The notes under the pieces: generated by a model
The model's database searches: none
Told to the model about the DNA's origin: nothing
What the model saw: the letters and a program-made list of their open reading frames with translations, nothing else
Assembly: GCA_030148545.1 (NCBI GenBank)
Contig: JASBTF010000002.1
Location: forward strand, 237,218-301,217
Reading direction: 5' to 3'
Length of the DNA stretch: 64,000 nucleotides
Source of the DNA: Pseudomonadota bacterium
Lineage (GTDB): Bacteria; Pseudomonadota; Alphaproteobacteria; UBA2136; JASBTF01
Part shown: positions 9,389 through 63,290 of the stretch, one piece after another
Position numbering within the stretch: the first letter of the stretch is position 1
Layout of the letters: each line of letters begins with the position of its first letter
Made by a program: the position numbers and the translations under genes

Positions 9389-9415
9389 AAAAACCCCCGC
9401 CTAGCGGGGGTTTTT
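9389..9415 (+). terminator. terminator of the secreted-protein gene
   Basis: AAAAACCCCCGC, loop CTA, GCGGGGGTTTTT. A partial second copy of its 3' half (CCGCCTAGCGGGGGCTTTTGC) lies at about 9533-9553. Confidence 0.9.
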
Positions 9416-9453
9416 GCTTTCAGTGTTATATTTCCGGGGGTGGGTTTTTAATT

Positions 9454-9493
9454 CTCGGCATCCCAAGCTGTCACAGACAGTTGGTTGCCGCGC
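9454..9493 (+). repeat. three-hairpin repeat family, copy A (first module only)
   Basis: CGGCATCCCAAGCTGTC, loop, GACAGTTGGTTGCCGCG. It matches the first module of the copies at 17370, 19742 and (inverted) 63212. The second and third modules are missing. Confidence 0.7.
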
Positions 9494-9587
9494 AGCAGCT
9501 TAGCTGACTGTGCGTGCATAAAGTTATACCACCGCCTAGCGGGGGCTTTTGCTTTTGCTACACTTATAAATACGTTAAAGTACGGCT

Positions 9588-17369: not shown

Positions 17370-17474
17370 TCGGCATCCCAAGCTCGCGGAGCGAGTTGGT
17401 TGCCGCGGCCAATTGGATAGGTTTGGGGGGTGTTCCCACTAGCAAACAGTGGCTTTGCCAGCTGTTTGCTATCC
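17370..17474 (+). repeat. three-hairpin repeat family, copy B
   Basis: Module 1 is CGGCATCCCAAGCTCGC / GCGAGTTGGTTGCCGCGG. The middle part is divergent. Module 3 is TAGCAAACAGTGGC, TTT, GCCAGCTGTTTGCTA. It fills the space between the convergent 3' ends of recF and dnaJ and probably also acts as their terminator region. Confidence 0.75.
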
Positions 17475-18629
17475 CTAATTCTTCCAGTATCGGTTGAGCT
17501 TATCCATGAACGAATCATGCGGCGTGTTGGCATCACCAAGGCTGTCACGCAGCTGTTCCAATAGCTCTTTCTGCTTTTTGTTGAGCTTACTTGGTACGCT
17601 AATATCCACAGTAACGTGCAAATCACCAAACGCTGTGCCACCAGGTACAGGCATGCCTTTGCCACGTAGGCGGAAGGTTTGGCCACTTTGTGTGCCGGCA
17701 GGAATTGCAATTTTAGCGCGGCCACCATCAGGCGTAGGCACTTCTAGTTCACCGCCCAGCGCGGCATCTACAAAGCCTAGCGGCATGGCCAGCTGCAAGT
17801 TGCGGCCATCTCGGGTAAAAATATCATGCGGTTTAAGCTGAATAAAAATGTATAAATCGCCCGCAGGGCCACCATGTGCACCCGCTTCACCCTCGCCAGA
17901 AACCCGAATCCGCGTGCCATCATCCACACCTTGTGGAATTTTCACGTTAATGGTTTTCTCTTTCTGTACGCGGCCTTGACCATGGCAACTGTTGCAAGGG
18001 TTTTCAACAATTGTCCCACGACCATGACAACGCGGACACGTGCGCGACATGCTGAAAAAGCCCTGCGTTACGCGCATTTCACCGCTACCGCCACAGCTTG
18101 GGCAGGTTGTTGGCTTGGTGCCAGGCTCGGCACCGCTGCCGTGGCAGGTGCCACATTCGGCCAGTGTTGGTATTTTTACTTTTACAGTTTTGCCGTTAAA
18201 GGCGTCTTCCAAGCTAATCGCAAGGTTGTAACGCAGGTCCGAGCCACGGGCTGCGCCAGCTTGGCCGCCAGCACGCGCGCCGCTAAACACATCGCCAAAC
18301 AGGTCTTCAAAAATATCTTCAAAGCCACCGGCACCGCCGCCCATGCCTTGGCCAAAGTCGTGGAAACCACCGCGGCTACTGCCAGCACCACCACCCATAC
18401 CGTTTTGGAAGGCATCATGTCCATAACGGTCGTACGCTGCGCGCTTTTGGTTGTCTTTCAGCACGTCATAAGCTTCATTCAGCTCTTTAAATTTGCGCTC
18501 AGCAACCTCGTCATCTGGGTTGCGGTCGGGGTGGTATTGCATTGCTTTTTTGCGGAATGCTTTTTTCAGCGCGGCTTCATCCGCACCTTTTTCCACACCT
18601 AAAACCTGGTAATAATCTTGTTTCGACAT
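17475..18629 (-). CDS. dnaJ: chaperone DnaJ
   Basis: Hsp40 cochaperone of DnaK. The order is a J domain (1-70) with HPD, a Gly/Phe-rich region (about 75-120), four CxxCxGxG zinc-finger repeats ([32 protein letters not shown]; about 150-215) and the C-terminal substrate-binding domains. The 384-residue length is normal. It is not adjacent to dnaK; three genes lie between, but a good CIRCE operator sits 26 bp upstream, so HrcA keeps it in the same heat-shock circuit. Confidence 0.98.
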
Positions 18630-19741: not shown

Positions 19742-19831
19742 TCGGCATCCCCAGCTCGCAATGCGAGTGGGTTGCCGCGGGGGCTGGGGTGCCCCCAGTA
19801 GCGAGGGGTGGCTTTGCCAGCCCCGACGCTA
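19742..19831 (+). repeat. three-hairpin repeat family, copy C
   Basis: Complete copy: CGGCATCCCCAGCTCGC / GCGAGTGGGTTGCCGCGG, then GGGGTGCCCCC, then GGGGTGGCTTTGCCAGCCCC. It lies between the dnaK stop and its terminator. Confidence 0.8.
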
Positions 19832-19845
19832 TTTCTGAAAACGCG

Positions 19846-30194: not shown

Positions 30195-30402
30195 AAAATG
30201 CATACATAACCCCTGTTCTGCGTAGCTGAGGTTACTTCTTACCAAATACATTCAGCATAGATTGTATAAATGCCGATTGCTTTTTGGCGTAGGGGTTTGT
30301 TTTATAATGATTATTTAGTGTCACCGCTGTGAGCTGTGCATAATTCTCTTGCATGGGGCGCAAAAATGGCATACATAACCCCTGTTCTGCGCAGCTGAGG
30401 TT
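30195..30402 (+). repeat. direct duplication in the rpsP leader region
   Basis: Two near-identical copies of about 40 bp at 30195-30233 and 30362-30402, differing by one base and one indel (core CATACATAACCCCTGTTCTG, then CG-T/C-AGCTGAGGTT). They flank 128 bp that contains a TATAAT at 30303-30308 and, on the minus strand, a 40-codon frame (30232-30354). A hairpin CTGGCG / CGCCAG lies downstream at 30451-30472. No other gene is seen between 30183 and 30520. Confidence 0.75.
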
Positions 30403-46483: not shown

Positions 46484-48316
46484 ATGGCCTATAACATCGA
46501 TATCGATTACGACCGTAACGACTGGCTGACAGATTTTGGCCGCGCAACGTTGCAAGATCGCTATTTGATGCCGGGTGAAACCCCGCAAGATGCTTTTGCT
46601 CGTGTAGCAGCTGCCTACGCTGACGACCAAGTACACGCACAACGCCTGTACGATTACATGAGCCGTCAATGGTTTACGCCAGCAACGCCTGTGCTGGTAA
46701 ACGGTGGTACGAGCCGTGGCCTACCAATTTCTTGCTTTTTGAACGAGGTTGAAGATGCCATGGAAGGCATCGTTGGCACGTGGACCGAGAACGTATGGCT
46801 AGCCGCTAAAGGTGGTGGTATTGGTACATACTGGGGTAATGTACGCTCTATTGGTGAGCGTGTTGGTCAGGTGGGTAAAACCAGCGGTATTATTCCATTT
46901 ATTCGTGTTCAAGACTCGCTCACAATGGCGATCTCCCAAGGGTCTCAGCGTCGTGGTGCAGCAGCAATTTACCTGCCAGTAAGCCACCCAGAGATTGAAG
47001 AGTTTATTGAAGTGCGCCGCCCAACGGGTGGTGATGCCAACCGTAAAGCACTATTTTTACACAATGCTGTATGTATTACCGACGACTTTATGGAAGCGGT
47101 AGAAAAAGATGCAGAGTGGAACTTAATTAGCCCTAAAACTGGCGAAATTGTACGTACTGTACAGGCTCGTGATTTGTGGATCCGTATTCTACTCGCGCGT
47201 ATTGAAACTGGTGAGCCATACATTTTGTTTACCGACACTGTGAACAAGCAAATGCCTGAGCACCAGCGCAAGCAAGGTTTGCAGGTTAAAATGAGCAATC
47301 TCTGTTCTGAGATTACATTGCCAACTGGTATTGACCAGCATGGTAAAGAGCGTACGGCTGTTTGCTGCTTGAGCTCCGTAAACCTAGAGCATTACGAGGC
47401 GTGGAGCGAGAAGCCAGAGTTTATTGAAGACCTGATGCGCTACTTGGATAATATCCTGCAGGACTTTATTGACCGTGCGCCAGATAGTATGGCACGTGCG
47501 CGTTATGCCGCCATGCGTGAACGTAGTGTTGGTTTGGGCGCTATGGGTTTCCACAGCTTTTTGCAAAGTAAAATGATTCCATTTGAGTCTGTGATGGCTA
47601 AAGTTTGGAACAAAAAAATGTTTAAATTCATCCGTGAGCAAGCTGATGCGGCAAGTCGTAAACTTGCTGAAGAACGTGGCCCATGCCCAGATGCTGCCGA
47701 AGTGTTGGTTAAAGAGCGCTTTAGCCACAAATTGGCCATTGCACCTAACGCCAGTAGCAGCATCTACTGCGGTGGTGCTAGCCCAGGTATTGAGCCATAC
47801 CCATCTAACAGTTACACCCACAAAACGCTGGATGGTTCGTTTAACGTACGCAACAAGTACCTGAAGAAGATCCTTGCTAAGTACGACTTGGATGATGAAG
47901 ATACATGGACCAATATTACCGTGCATGGTGGCTCCGTTCAGCACATTGAAGAGCTAACTGAGCATGAAAAAGATGTGTTTAAAACTGGTTTTGAACTAAA
48001 CCAAGAATGGATTGTTGAACACGCTGGCGACCGTGCTGAGTTTATTTGTCAAAGCCAGTCTTTAAATATTTTCCTCCCCGCTGATGTGGATAAGCGCACC
48101 TTGCATATGCTGCATTTCAAGGCGTGGAAGAAAGGCGTAAAAAGCTTGTACTACTGTCGTAGTAAGTCGCTGCAACGCGCCGAAGTAGTTTCCATTAATA
48201 ACAAAGGCAAAGCAGCCGACGCAGTCATGCCGCAACAACAGCAAAAAGTTGCTGCTGCAGGTGGGGGGAATGTTTCTCCGGCCAATATGTCCGACTGTAT
48301 CGCTTGCGAAGGTTAG
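46484..48316 (+). CDS. nrdA: ribonucleoside-diphosphate reductase alpha subunit, class Ia, no ATP cone
   Basis: The catalytic subunit that reduces NDPs to dNDPs. The ATG at 46484 follows AAAGGGG. Active-site Cys are in LPISCF (residue 84), SNLCSE (about 274) and CCLSSVN (about 295), and the C-terminal shuttle pair is CIAC. The first catalytic Cys at residue 84, rather than 225 as in E. coli, shows that the N-terminal ATP cone for dATP inhibition is missing. 610 residues. Regulation may rest on the NrdR boxes. Confidence 0.95.
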   Translation: MAYNIDIDYDRNDWLTDFGRATLQDRYLMPGETPQDAFARVAAAYADDQVHAQRLYDYMSRQWFTPATPVLVNGGTSRGLPISCFLNEVEDAMEGIVGTWTENVWLAAKGGGIGTYWGNVRSIGERVGQVGKTSGIIPFIRVQDSLTMAISQGSQRRGAAAIYLPVSHPEIEEFIEVRRPTGGDANRKALFLHNAVCITDDFMEAVEKDAEWNLISPKTGEIVRTVQARDLWIRILLARIETGEPYILFTDTVNKQMPEHQRKQGLQVKMSNLCSEITLPTGIDQHGKERTAVCCLSSVNLEHYEAWSEKPEFIEDLMRYLDNILQDFIDRAPDSMARARYAAMRERSVGLGAMGFHSFLQSKMIPFESVMAKVWNKKMFKFIREQADAASRKLAEERGPCPDAAEVLVKERFSHKLAIAPNASSSIYCGGASPGIEPYPSNSYTHKTLDGSFNVRNKYLKKILAKYDLDDEDTWTNITVHGGSVQHIEELTEHEKDVFKTGFELNQEWIVEHAGDRAEFICQSQSLNIFLPADVDKRTLHMLHFKAWKKGVKSLYYCRSKSLQRAEVVSINNKGKAADAVMPQQQQKVAAAGGGNVSPANMSDCIACEG

Positions 48317-48450
48317 ACCAACCTGGTGCCGCGTAGCGGTAAACAACAATTAAATATTGTTGTTAAGGTTGTGTCCCGGAGGCTTATATGCTCGCCGTAG
48401 GCGTAGGATGTAAGTCGCAGGAAAGCCTCACAGTACAAAGTGTTGGAAAT
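48317..48450 (+). repeat. structured intergenic element, copy X1 (nrdA-nrdB)
   Basis: A closing stem CAACC / GGTTG encloses two hairpins: TGCCGC-GTA-GCGGTA and AACAACAAT, loop TAAAT, ATTGTTGTT. Then comes GTGTCCCGGAG, and a GAGGCTT / AAGCCTC stem around CGCC-GTA-GGCG. The first half is nearly identical to copy X2 at 61455. Confidence 0.75.
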
Positions 48451-53802: not shown

Positions 53803-55119
53803 ATGACCCAAACAGCAGCGGTGCAAGACAATTTCACCGATTACAAAGTAGCCGATATGAGCCTGGCCGAGTGGGGCCGTAAGGAAATTGAGCTAGCAGA
53901 ACAAGAAATGCCTGGCCTAATGGCCCTGCGTGAAGAGTATGGCGTCAGCCAGCCGCTAAAAGGTGCGCGCATTGCTGGTTGCCTGCACATGACTATTCAA
54001 ACCGCCGTACTTATTGAAACCCTAACCGCACTGGGTGCTACCGTGCGTTGGAGCAGCTGTAATATCTTCAGCACGCAGGACCAAGCTGCAGCTGCCATTG
54101 CTGCAGCAGGTATTCCTGTTTTTGCATGGAAAGGCGAAACAGAGGAAGAGTATGACTGGTGTATCCGTCAGACCATTAAGAGTGCAGATGGCTGGACACC
54201 AAATATGATTTTGGACGATGGCGGTGACCTAACCATGCTGATGCATGATGAGTTCCCAGAAATGATGGCCGATATCCAAGGTGTGAGCGAAGAAACCACC
54301 ACTGGTGTGGCACGTCTTTACCGCATGCAGCAGGAAGGTGCTCTAAAATGCCCAGCCATTAACGTTAACGATAGCGTAACCAAGAGTAAGTTCGACAACC
54401 TATACGGCTGTCGCGAAAGCCTGCCAGATGGCTTGAAGCGCGCTACCGATATTATGATTGCTGGTAAAACCTGTGTGGTTGCTGGCTTTGGTGATGTAGG
54501 TAAAGGTTCTGCTGACTCTTTGCGTGCTCACGGTGCTCGCGTACTGGTGACTGAGATTGACCCAATTTGTGCACTGCAAGCTGCTATGGCCGGTTACGAG
54601 GTAGTAACCATGGAGCAAGCGGCGAGCGAGGCTGATATCTTTGTAACCGCAACCGGTAACAAGGATGTTATTACCCGTGCTCACATGGAGCAAATGAAGC
54701 ATGGCGCTATTGTGTGTAACATTGGTCACTTCGATAACGAGATTCAGGTAGAGCAAATTCGTGACCTGACCTGGACCAACATTAAGCCACAGGTAGATGA
54801 AATCACCTTTGCTGATGGTAAGAGCATTATTTTGCTAGCAGAAGGTCGCTTGGTGAATTTGGGCTGTGCTACTGGTCACCCAAGCTTTGTGATGAGCTTT
54901 AGCTTCACCAACCAAACCTTGGCACAAATTGAGCTATGGAATAACCACTCTGACTACGAGCAAAAAGTGTACGTACTACCAAAACACCTAGATGAAAAGG
55001 TAGCGCACCTGCACTTGGCTAAGTTGGGTATTAACCTAACCGAGCTCACAACCGACCAAGCTGAATACCTTGGCCTCTCTGCCGAAGGCCCATTCAAGCC
55101 AGATTGGTACCGTTACTAG
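53803..55119 (+). CDS. ahcY: adenosylhomocysteinase
   Basis: It hydrolyses S-adenosylhomocysteine to adenosine and homocysteine in the methyl cycle. It shows [13 protein letters not shown] (about residue 62), the NAD-binding motif [11 protein letters not shown] (about 226), and the typical C-terminal KPDWYRY. 438 residues, bacterial length. AGGGGAGA precedes the ATG. The upstream gap does not match an SAH riboswitch; a weak candidate promoter is TTGCAT (53731) with TCTAAT (53754). Confidence 0.97.
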
Positions 55120-55124
55120 GTATG

Positions 55125-55212
55125 CTCGGGTGCTGGCAAAGCCAGCACCCGGCACCAAGGTCACCTTGGAACCGCGTGGACCAATCGCTTTCAGCGACTT
55201 GGGACCACGGGC
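55125..55212 (-). repeat. three-hairpin repeat family, copy E (inverted)
   Basis: Read on the minus strand: TCCCAAGTCGCTGAAAGCGA, then a CGCGGTTCCAAGGTGACCTTGG module, then GGGTGCTGGCTTTGCCAGCACCC. It matches copy D module by module with paired changes in the stems. It lies after ahcY. Confidence 0.8.
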
Positions 55213-60363: not shown

Positions 60364-61437
60364 ATGACACATACACCAGCCAACCACCCCGTTGTTAACC
60401 CTATCAAAACAGGTGTTTTGGTGGTTAATCTTGGTTCGCCGGATGATCTTTCCACCGCCAGTGTGCGTCGTTATTTACGTGAATTTTTAAGCGATAAACG
60501 GGTGATAGACCTGCCGCGTTTGGCGTGGCTACCCATTTTGCACGGTATTATCCTCAACACGCGCCCCCGCAAAACGGCTGCGGCCTACAAAAAAATTTGG
60601 TGGCCCAACTGTGAGCAGGAGGAGGGCACAGGCGCGCCGCTGAAGGTCATGACCAAGCGCCAAGCAGCCTCAGTGCAAGAATTTCTCGATAAAGAATTTG
60701 GCGCTAATACTGTGGTAGTGCGCTGGGCCATGCGTTATGCCAGCCCCAGCATTGCTAGCCAATTGCAGGAGCTGCGTGATGCCAAGTGCGACCGTATTTT
60801 AGTGATGCCGCTTTACCCGCAATATGCCGGCGCCACCACCGCCACGGTGAACGATAAAGTGTTCGATGAACTCAAAAAAATGGCATGGCAACCAGCGCTG
60901 CGTACCTTAGCACCGTATTATGATCATCCCTTATATATAGACGCGCTCGCCAAAAGCGTAACCGAACATTACAAATCATTGGGTTGGCAGCCAGATATGC
61001 TGCTCACCAGCTACCATGGCATGCCCAAACGTTACCTCACACAAGGCGACCCCTACCATTGCCACTGCGCCAAAACCACGCGCTTGCTGCGGGAAAAGCT
61101 CGGCTGGGCAGAGGATAAGGTGAAGTTGAGCTTTCAGTCACGCTTTGGCCCAGCAGAGTGGCTCAAGCCCTATACTGATGAGGTCTTAGAGGAGTTGCCA
61201 GCTAAGGGTATTAAAAAACTTGCGGTGATGACCCCGTCGTTCAGTGCCGACTGTTTAGAAACACTGGAAGAAATTGCCATGGAGGGTAAAGAAACTTTCC
61301 TTGCTGCAGGTGGTGAGCAGTTTACATTTATCCCATGTCTTAACGATGATGCTGCAGGATTACATATGTTGCACCAGCTCACACTCGAGAACCTCAGCGG
61401 TTTTGTGCAAAAATCTCCCACTGGGCGAAATTTTTAG
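60364..61437 (+). CDS. hemH: ferrochelatase
   Basis: It inserts Fe2+ into protoporphyrin IX, the last step of heme synthesis. The signature SYHGMPKRYLTQGDPYHCHC (about residue 217) includes the catalytic His. LVVNLGSPD begins the first domain (about 19-27), and the C-terminal block SFSADCLETLEEI contains the conserved Glu. 357 residues. It also contains a Cys pair CHC. Confidence 0.97.
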   Translation: MTHTPANHPVVNPIKTGVLVVNLGSPDDLSTASVRRYLREFLSDKRVIDLPRLAWLPILHGIILNTRPRKTAAAYKKIWWPNCEQEEGTGAPLKVMTKRQAASVQEFLDKEFGANTVVVRWAMRYASPSIASQLQELRDAKCDRILVMPLYPQYAGATTATVNDKVFDELKKMAWQPALRTLAPYYDHPLYIDALAKSVTEHYKSLGWQPDMLLTSYHGMPKRYLTQGDPYHCHCAKTTRLLREKLGWAEDKVKLSFQSRFGPAEWLKPYTDEVLEELPAKGIKKLAVMTPSFSADCLETLEEIAMEGKETFLAAGGEQFTFIPCLNDDAAGLHMLHQLTLENLSGFVQKSPTGRNF

Positions 61438-61454
61438 TTTCTATTGGCTTTCGC

Positions 61455-61662
61455 GGGGACCAACCCGTTGCCGCGTAGCGGCAAACAATAATTAAGTATT
61501 ATTGTTAGGGTTGTGTCCCGGAGACTTACCTTCAGGTAAGTTGAAGGCCTGCAATTTACCTAAAGGTAAATTTACGGGACACAGCGCTGCCCAGCATCCC
61601 CCGGAAGCTGGGCTTGGCCTATGGCCAACCGCGCTGGTCACACTCGAGTTTCCACGGTCCTC
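61455..61662 (+). repeat. structured intergenic element, copy X2 (hemH-rpsB)
   Basis: A large fold. Outer stem GGGGACC / GGTCCTC. Junction CAACC / GGTTG with hairpins TTGCCGC-GTA-GCGGCAA and AACAATAAT, loop TAAGT, ATTATTGTT. Then GTGTCCCG (61513) pairs with CGGGACAC (61575), enclosing ACTTACC-TTCA-GGTAAGT and AATTTACC-TAAA-GGTAAATT. Then GCCCAGC / GCTGGGC and TTGGCC-TAT-GGCCAA. No open frame of interest is present. Confidence 0.75.
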
Positions 61663-61740
61663 ATAAACTAAAAATCTCATCCCATTGGAAAATTTTGTAG
61701 TTTTGGCCAAAGCTGGTTATCTATTTTTTTAGCCTTAGCG

Positions 61741-61832
61741 GGCACGATATCCCAAGTCGCCCGCGGCGATTGGTTACCGCGGTTCCAAGGTGCCCTTGGT
61801 AACGAGGGGTGGCTTTGCCACTCCCGACGTTA
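61741..61832 (+). repeat. three-hairpin repeat family, copy D
   Basis: TCCCAAGTCGC / GGCGATTGGTTACCGCGG, then TCCAAGGTGCCCTTGG, then GAGGGGTGGCTTTGCCACTCC. It lies between element X2 and the rpsB leader. Confidence 0.8.
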
Positions 61833-61857
61833 TGATAATTTTGCTTGCATTACTGCT

Positions 61858-63195: not shown

Positions 63196-63211
63196 TAGTT
63201 TAGGAACAGCT

Positions 63212-63290
63212 ACATGGTCGGCAAAGCCGCCATGTGCTGCCAAGGGCACCTTGAAACCGCGGCAACCTCGTTGCACTCGGGATGCCGACA
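63212..63290 (-). repeat. three-hairpin repeat family, copy F (inverted)
   Basis: On the minus strand: TCGGCATCCCGAGTGCAACG with GTTGCCGCGG, then TTCAAGGTGCCCTTGG, then ATGGCGGCTTTGCCGACCAT. It lies between the two tRNA genes. Confidence 0.75.

Follow-up and report, generated by a model that had tools for sequence, protein, structure and literature searches.

The single-strand transposons of the IS200/IS605 group, together with their non-autonomous derivatives, insert 3′ of a short fixed target; their ends are structured, and some of their internal letters pair both with that target and with the end of the element itself. In catalogues, small structured repeats usually appear as simple palindromes whose movement depends on REP-associated tyrosine transposases (RAYTs). 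Such REP/BIME elements are intergenic, palindromic, multi-copy and often dimeric, and bear a GTAG or CGTC tag; the CGTC families concentrate in Alphaproteobacteria (PMC3733652, PMC2817692), where REP-like CGTC families are common, including in Micavibrio (PMC3733652). Rickettsia palindromic elements (RPEs) and other MITEs are structured repeats of ~100–150 bp, dispersed in an alphaproteobacterial genome and lacking a transposase of their own (PMC10969869). Finally, the attC sites of integrons are palindromic cassette sites recognised as a folded strand, in which structure matters more than sequence (PMC3053210, PMC2117344). Here we analyse a structured repeat, family A, of an alphaproteobacterial genome of 1.14 Mb (three contigs, 85.8% complete), starting from a window of 64,000 nucleotides, the whole stretch of DNA under study. 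The nearest named record, judged by NrdB, is Alphaproteobacteria bacterium CG_4_10_14_0_8_um_filter_53_9 (L131; 75% identical).

Family A resembles the IS200/IS605 derivatives in its putative insertion 3′ of a short target, its structured ends and its internal letters capable of pairing with the target and with its own end, but it has no coding part, and its pairing is suggested by invariant letters only. The Y1 transposase domain (PF01797) gave 0 matches at E ≤ 1 in the 85.8% complete genome, while controls matched in 10 of 14; movement by a RAYT/Y1 enzyme of the same genome was accordingly rejected, although, given that completeness, a Y1 gene could lie in the missing part. The same empty search bears on the idea that A is an ordinary REP/BIME moved by a RAYT, with its inverted pair as the dimer arrangement. 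The elements are indeed intergenic, palindromic, multi-copy, dimeric and hosts of insertions. However, the units are 90–110 nt long with three to four hairpins and a junction closed over two of them, not single palindromes of 20–40 nt, and neither the A nor the C alignment (family C being another repeat of this genome) contains an invariant unpaired GTAG or CGTC tag, which makes a REP/BIME identity very improbable. Unlike RPEs, which insert in reading frames, A and C lie outside genes; long terminal inverted repeats are present in A only when it forms a dimer, and target-site duplications were not seen; unlike attC sites, A is dispersed rather than arranged in cassette arrays and folds into several hairpins rather than one.

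The structured element between hemH and rpsB

Positions 61455–61662 of the window had been described in the first-pass annotation as able to fold into one closed structure of about 208 bases. The interval is strongly structured (fold −104.4 kcal/mol, z −8.6; 0 of 200 shuffles as good), but a single closed 208-base RNA was rejected: the interval splits into two units matched by a covariance model, R1, namely copy 1 at 61458–61547 on the + strand (103.8 bits) and copy 2 at 61548–61639 on the − strand (87.8 bits), which is inverted and abuts copy 1 directly, tail to tail. As a blast query against the genome, the 208 bases returned 18 full or partial matches, a result that reveals them as a composite. 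The proposed outer pairing, GGGGACC/GGTCCTC, is present in the minimum-energy fold, yet the pairing common to the copies is local, GAC pairing with the unit's own GTC.

Alignment of the copies defines a hairpin-rich unit of ~90 nt in which GAC is followed by P1, a stem that encloses two hairpins (P2 has a 3-nt loop and P3 a 9-bp stem), and then by GTCCCG, hairpin P4 and GNAGG. The GAC pairs with a GTC inside the unit, and the CC that follows this GTC pairs with the terminal GG. In copy 1, as delimited by pair counts, GAC 61458–61460 pairs with GTC 61515–61517, P1 comprises 61461–61466/61508–61513, P2 61469–61474/61478–61483, P3 61484–61492/61498–61506 and P4 61523–61530/61535–61542, while CC 61518–61519 pairs with GG 61546–61547. 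Copy 2 has an AGCGC/GCGCT variant of P1 and a GC-rich P3.

The second copy reported near 48317 is a real member of the family, as a whole unit with a long P4 at 48316–48421 (+, 88.1 bits) and not merely as a shared junction domain. It lies between nrdA and nrdB, its first base (48316) being the final G of the nrdA TAG stop codon, and Pfam Ribonuc_red_lgC is matched upstream; the interval 48317–48450 folds at −49.0 kcal/mol (z −4.3; 0 of 200 shuffles as good). Both base-pair changes noted between the two regions are genuine: the C:G to T:A change in a stem (CAACAAT..ATTGTTG in the nrd copy, CAATAAT..ATTATTG here) and the change from wobble to Watson-Crick pair (GCGGT versus GCGGC). The subfamily with the longer P4 comprises only four copies (L121, L125, L126, L129); three are placed precisely at stop codons, between genes that run in one direction, and one neighbours a flagellin gene.

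In the 1.14-Mb genome, R1 finds 19 copies of the unit with E-values from 1e-7 to 3e-22, far above chance; these values are rough, and R1, like the family C model R2, was built from copies that it then finds. In an alignment of 17 copies, 93.6% of the cells are paired, compared with 35–41% in slid controls, and 21 of the 34 pairs have changed on both sides, giving 105 such cells (0 of 500 shuffles); copies within one genome are non-independent events, and these counts overstate the number of changes. RNAalifold, unaided, returns nearly the same structure. The GAC/GTC and CC/GG pairs are invariant and hence contribute no covariation support. Overall, there is strong support for family A having kept its structure while its sequence changed.

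Nesting of the repeats and the proposed insertion point

The A dimer 61458–61639, with nothing between its two copies, sits in the tip of a long-armed hairpin of another repeat, family B. Its left arm (61417–61457, +), recognised as the start of a 280-bp block common to C3:256846–260053 and from other B copies, overlaps the last codons of hemH, whose stop ends at 61437; its right arm (61640–61696, +) includes the core ACTCGAGTTTCCACG at 61642–61656. Family B has about seven copies with the core CTTTCGCGGGACTC..CTACACTCGAGTTTCCACG. Among 61417–61696 and the copies at L071, L072, L074, L075 and L079, the tip core is almost invariant, and the arms differ between copies and stay complementary. The B-plus-A-dimer composite is also found on contig C3, with A copies at C3:258349 and C3:258439. 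The composite 61417–61696 is 95% identical to the C3 copy over ~280 bp, after which identity stops and the flanks are unrelated; it was thus copied as a unit.

Nesting is common in the family, with ~12 of the 19 A copies involving loops of other hairpin repeats. Six occupy one hairpin (H2) of family C, always in the same orientation (C3:243031, C3:240541, C1:497135, C1:322993, C1:40731 and C3:55212), two dimers lie in B (C1:298675 and C3:258349), and one copy is found in the P4 loop of another A (C1:578996–579159). This reduced genome contains about 100 copies of multi-hairpin units. By our estimate, these repeats occupy roughly 1% of its sequence and hold more than half of the A copies, a placement that is not random. 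Nineteen diverged copies of A share one structure, members of the family are nested in B, in C and in A itself, and the composite of B and the A dimer has been duplicated.

GAC precedes every family A copy. An empty C loop at C1:141098 reads GCGGGGACTGGGGTGTCCCCAGT, split as GCGGGGAC-TGGGGTGTCCCCAGT, and the filled loop at C3:55212 reads GCGGGGAC-[A]-AGGGTGTCCCCAGT, empty and filled loops differing by one or two further bases. Five unfilled B cores read GCGGGACTC, and P4 of several A copies reads ACTGACC. Where empty host loops can be compared, GAC is already in place at the insertion point; the element also carries a GTC that pairs with this GAC and, directly behind it, a CC that pairs with its terminal GG. 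These comparisons support the view that A would insert directly 3′ of GAC. The invariant GAC could also be part of the element rather than its target. The ends of single copies match at most as GACC/AGG, with no visible target-site duplication, and the dimer has inverted ends by construction.

Present 19 times, and settled in the loops of other repeats and at stop codons, A has the look of a small mobile DNA element more than that of a lone regulatory RNA. Among the three options that had been offered for this locus, a noncoding RNA, a regulatory leader or a mobile structured repeat, the last fits best, with dispersed copies, nested insertions for which comparable empty loops can be read, and a duplicated composite. 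On balance, we favour the interpretation that A is a small non-autonomous mobile element of conserved structure inserting after GAC, and that 61458–61639 is a tail-to-tail pair of such elements. A candidate trans-acting enzyme would recognise the folded single strand of A and cut after GAC; the structure may be kept by this recognition together with template-switch repair of palindromes, and insertions would survive where they do little harm, namely within the loops of other repeats' hairpins and at stop codons or shortly behind them.

Family C, placement relative to genes and stem changes

Family C, whose copies were extracted by iterated nhmmer, is a three-hairpin repeat with roughly 70 genomic copies (a genome scan gave 78 rows at E ≤ 0.1, several of which are weak or represent two halves of filled copies). 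Covariation is strong in this family too, its stems containing 147 cells changed on both sides (0 of 500 shuffles). The hemH–rpsB interval itself contains a copy without A inside at 61745–61837 (+; R2 92.8 bits; pair counts); it belongs to the family that hosts the six A copies. Further copies in the window were found with R2 at 19743–19836 (+, 98.6 bits), 55118–55209 (−, 86.3 bits), 63202–63287 (−, 73.4 bits) and 17371–17476 (+, 62.8 bits). Judged by gene ends, the copy at 55118 is next to the stop codon of a gene ending at 55119, and that at 17371–17476 reaches with its 3′ end into the stop codon of ORF 17475–18629, which faces inward. A truncated copy at 9456–9519 (+, 36 bits) is associated with a direct repeat, being flanked by near-identical terminator-like hairpins at 9393–9420 and 9528–9555. 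At L057 (C1:332174–335221), a direct repeat of ~80 bases, which includes a terminator-like hairpin and the initial bases of C, lies on either side of a C copy. The window also has a 39-base direct repeat (30195–30233 and 30364–30402; 92% identical, 169 bases apart).

Outside this genome, family C was detected in 2 of 289 genomes of the class, both from another alphaproteobacterial family, with seven and three copies. Among them are the copies at L241, L246, L252 (G075:C24), L242, L247 and L248 (G290). Some, not all, of the copies in these genomes are close behind stop codons (L242, L246) or tRNA 3′ ends (L241, L243). On G075:C24, three C copies lie within about 1.3 kb, and copies in these genomes also occur near tRNA genes.

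Such placement is also pronounced in the genome under study. The reverse-strand C start has a stop codon from −12 to +5 in 19 of the 30 loci tested, while ~8.5% of oriented intergenic window positions would qualify (binomial p about 1e-13; the statistic uses simple ORF calls, and copies may share history). C at these stop codons is in reverse orientation to the gene, and at several loci its first stem itself forms the stop codon. Of the seven free-standing A copies, four start precisely at a stop codon (nrdA TAG, rpmJ-like TAG, holA TGA and amidase TGA), where they are sense and lie between co-oriented genes. None of the A and C copies tested lies inside a long ORF, and overlaps are limited to unsupported short ORFs. 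The terminal AGG was considered as a ribosome-binding site and dismissed, as by inspection its spacing to start codons is inconsistent.

The stop-codon placement of both families would also fit a function and is not easily explained by plain target choice. A (and C) could then work as RNA elements at the 3′ ends of mRNAs and in operon spacers; folded just behind the stop codon, they would stabilise or process the upstream mRNA, selection having kept the copies after an ancient spread. The recurrence of C near gene or tRNA 3′ ends in a second family agrees with such a role, whereas A copies inside C run antisense to the gene at whose stop codon C lies, and an RNA role would not require A to nest in A, B and C. 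Moreover, there is no terminator-like site or T run within the A elements of either region, nor a terminator-like T run after A, and an intrinsic terminator was rejected, the stem having no T run. We consider an RNA function, the leading alternative to the mobile element, rather unlikely, and it is the stop-codon placement that keeps it at that level. The preferred reading of A as a mobile element may be reconciled with this placement if, in a shrinking genome, deletion removed the spacer between stop codon and element.

The composition of the stems bears on the same choice. Their changes are almost only between Watson-Crick pairs, with about 2–4% G-T. Family A stems contain 19 G-T and 9 A-C among 544 cells, part of both coming from long-P4 copies with a misaligned upper P4, and no G-T intermediates occur in P3; family C stems contain 12 G-T and 18 A-C among 823 cells, G-T not being favoured on either strand. 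G-T pairs are thus rare, probably scarcer than is usual for structured RNA, which argues against an RNA role, although G-T cells do exceed A-C cells in A. This slight excess would fit a folded + strand, either RNA or single-stranded DNA, and the rarity of G-T suits DNA folding or template-switch repair of palindromes at least as well as RNA.

Double changes leading straight from one Watson-Crick pair to another, with so few G-T, are also what mutation alone would leave, if template switching between hairpin arms produced the compensatory changes in the absence of selection on structure; template switching is known both to generate stems and to preserve them, and it can yield this pattern with no selection on RNA (PMC8794818). 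However, the unpaired and junction letters of A (GTCCCG, the GGA/GNA internal loop and the AAA and TTA linkers) are conserved as well, and P1, which pairs across two other hairpins, would not be maintained by simple hairpin repair. Mutation as the sole cause is therefore improbable. The earlier suggestion of selection on structure holds insofar as structure is conserved while sequence changes; selection on RNA does not necessarily follow, given the few G-T pairs, the occurrence of A copies in both orientations relative to transcription and the possibility of template switching.

Distribution and significance

The first-pass annotation recognised no known family, and this is borne out as far as Rfam goes. 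Rfam 15 identified only two tRNAs in the window at gathering score and nothing on the elements, and at eight element loci no family matched the elements at E ≤ 2; membership in a known RNA family was rejected accordingly. Family A gave no convincing match by DNA similarity in 40 genomes and none by model in 17 genomes of the order, by pattern in GTDB 220 genomes (the own genome possibly not among them) or in the examined stretches of the two C-carrying genomes. In the L131 relative, nothing comparable precedes nrdB. A phage or plasmid origin was rejected, as no similar DNA was found in phages or plasmids and no pattern match in viral contigs.

Family A thus looks like an undescribed family of small mobile DNA element. 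More tentatively, and with considerable doubt, A and C might represent the first described examples of a class of structured DNA elements whose settlement depends on structure. Such elements would insert as folded single strands, guided by the pairing of internal letters with a target of three bases (GAC for A), and would be directed to hairpin loops and stop codons, with C common to two distant alphaproteobacterial families and placed in each of them at the 3′ ends of genes or tRNAs. Compared with the simple palindromes under which small structured repeats are usually catalogued, the units described here are larger, multi-hairpin and mutually nested, and sit precisely at stop codons in a genome where the search for PF01797 was empty. 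That empty and filled loops can both be read makes the insertion rule testable. The two families also call for caution, in that strong covariation among the repeats of one genome need not imply a functional RNA.
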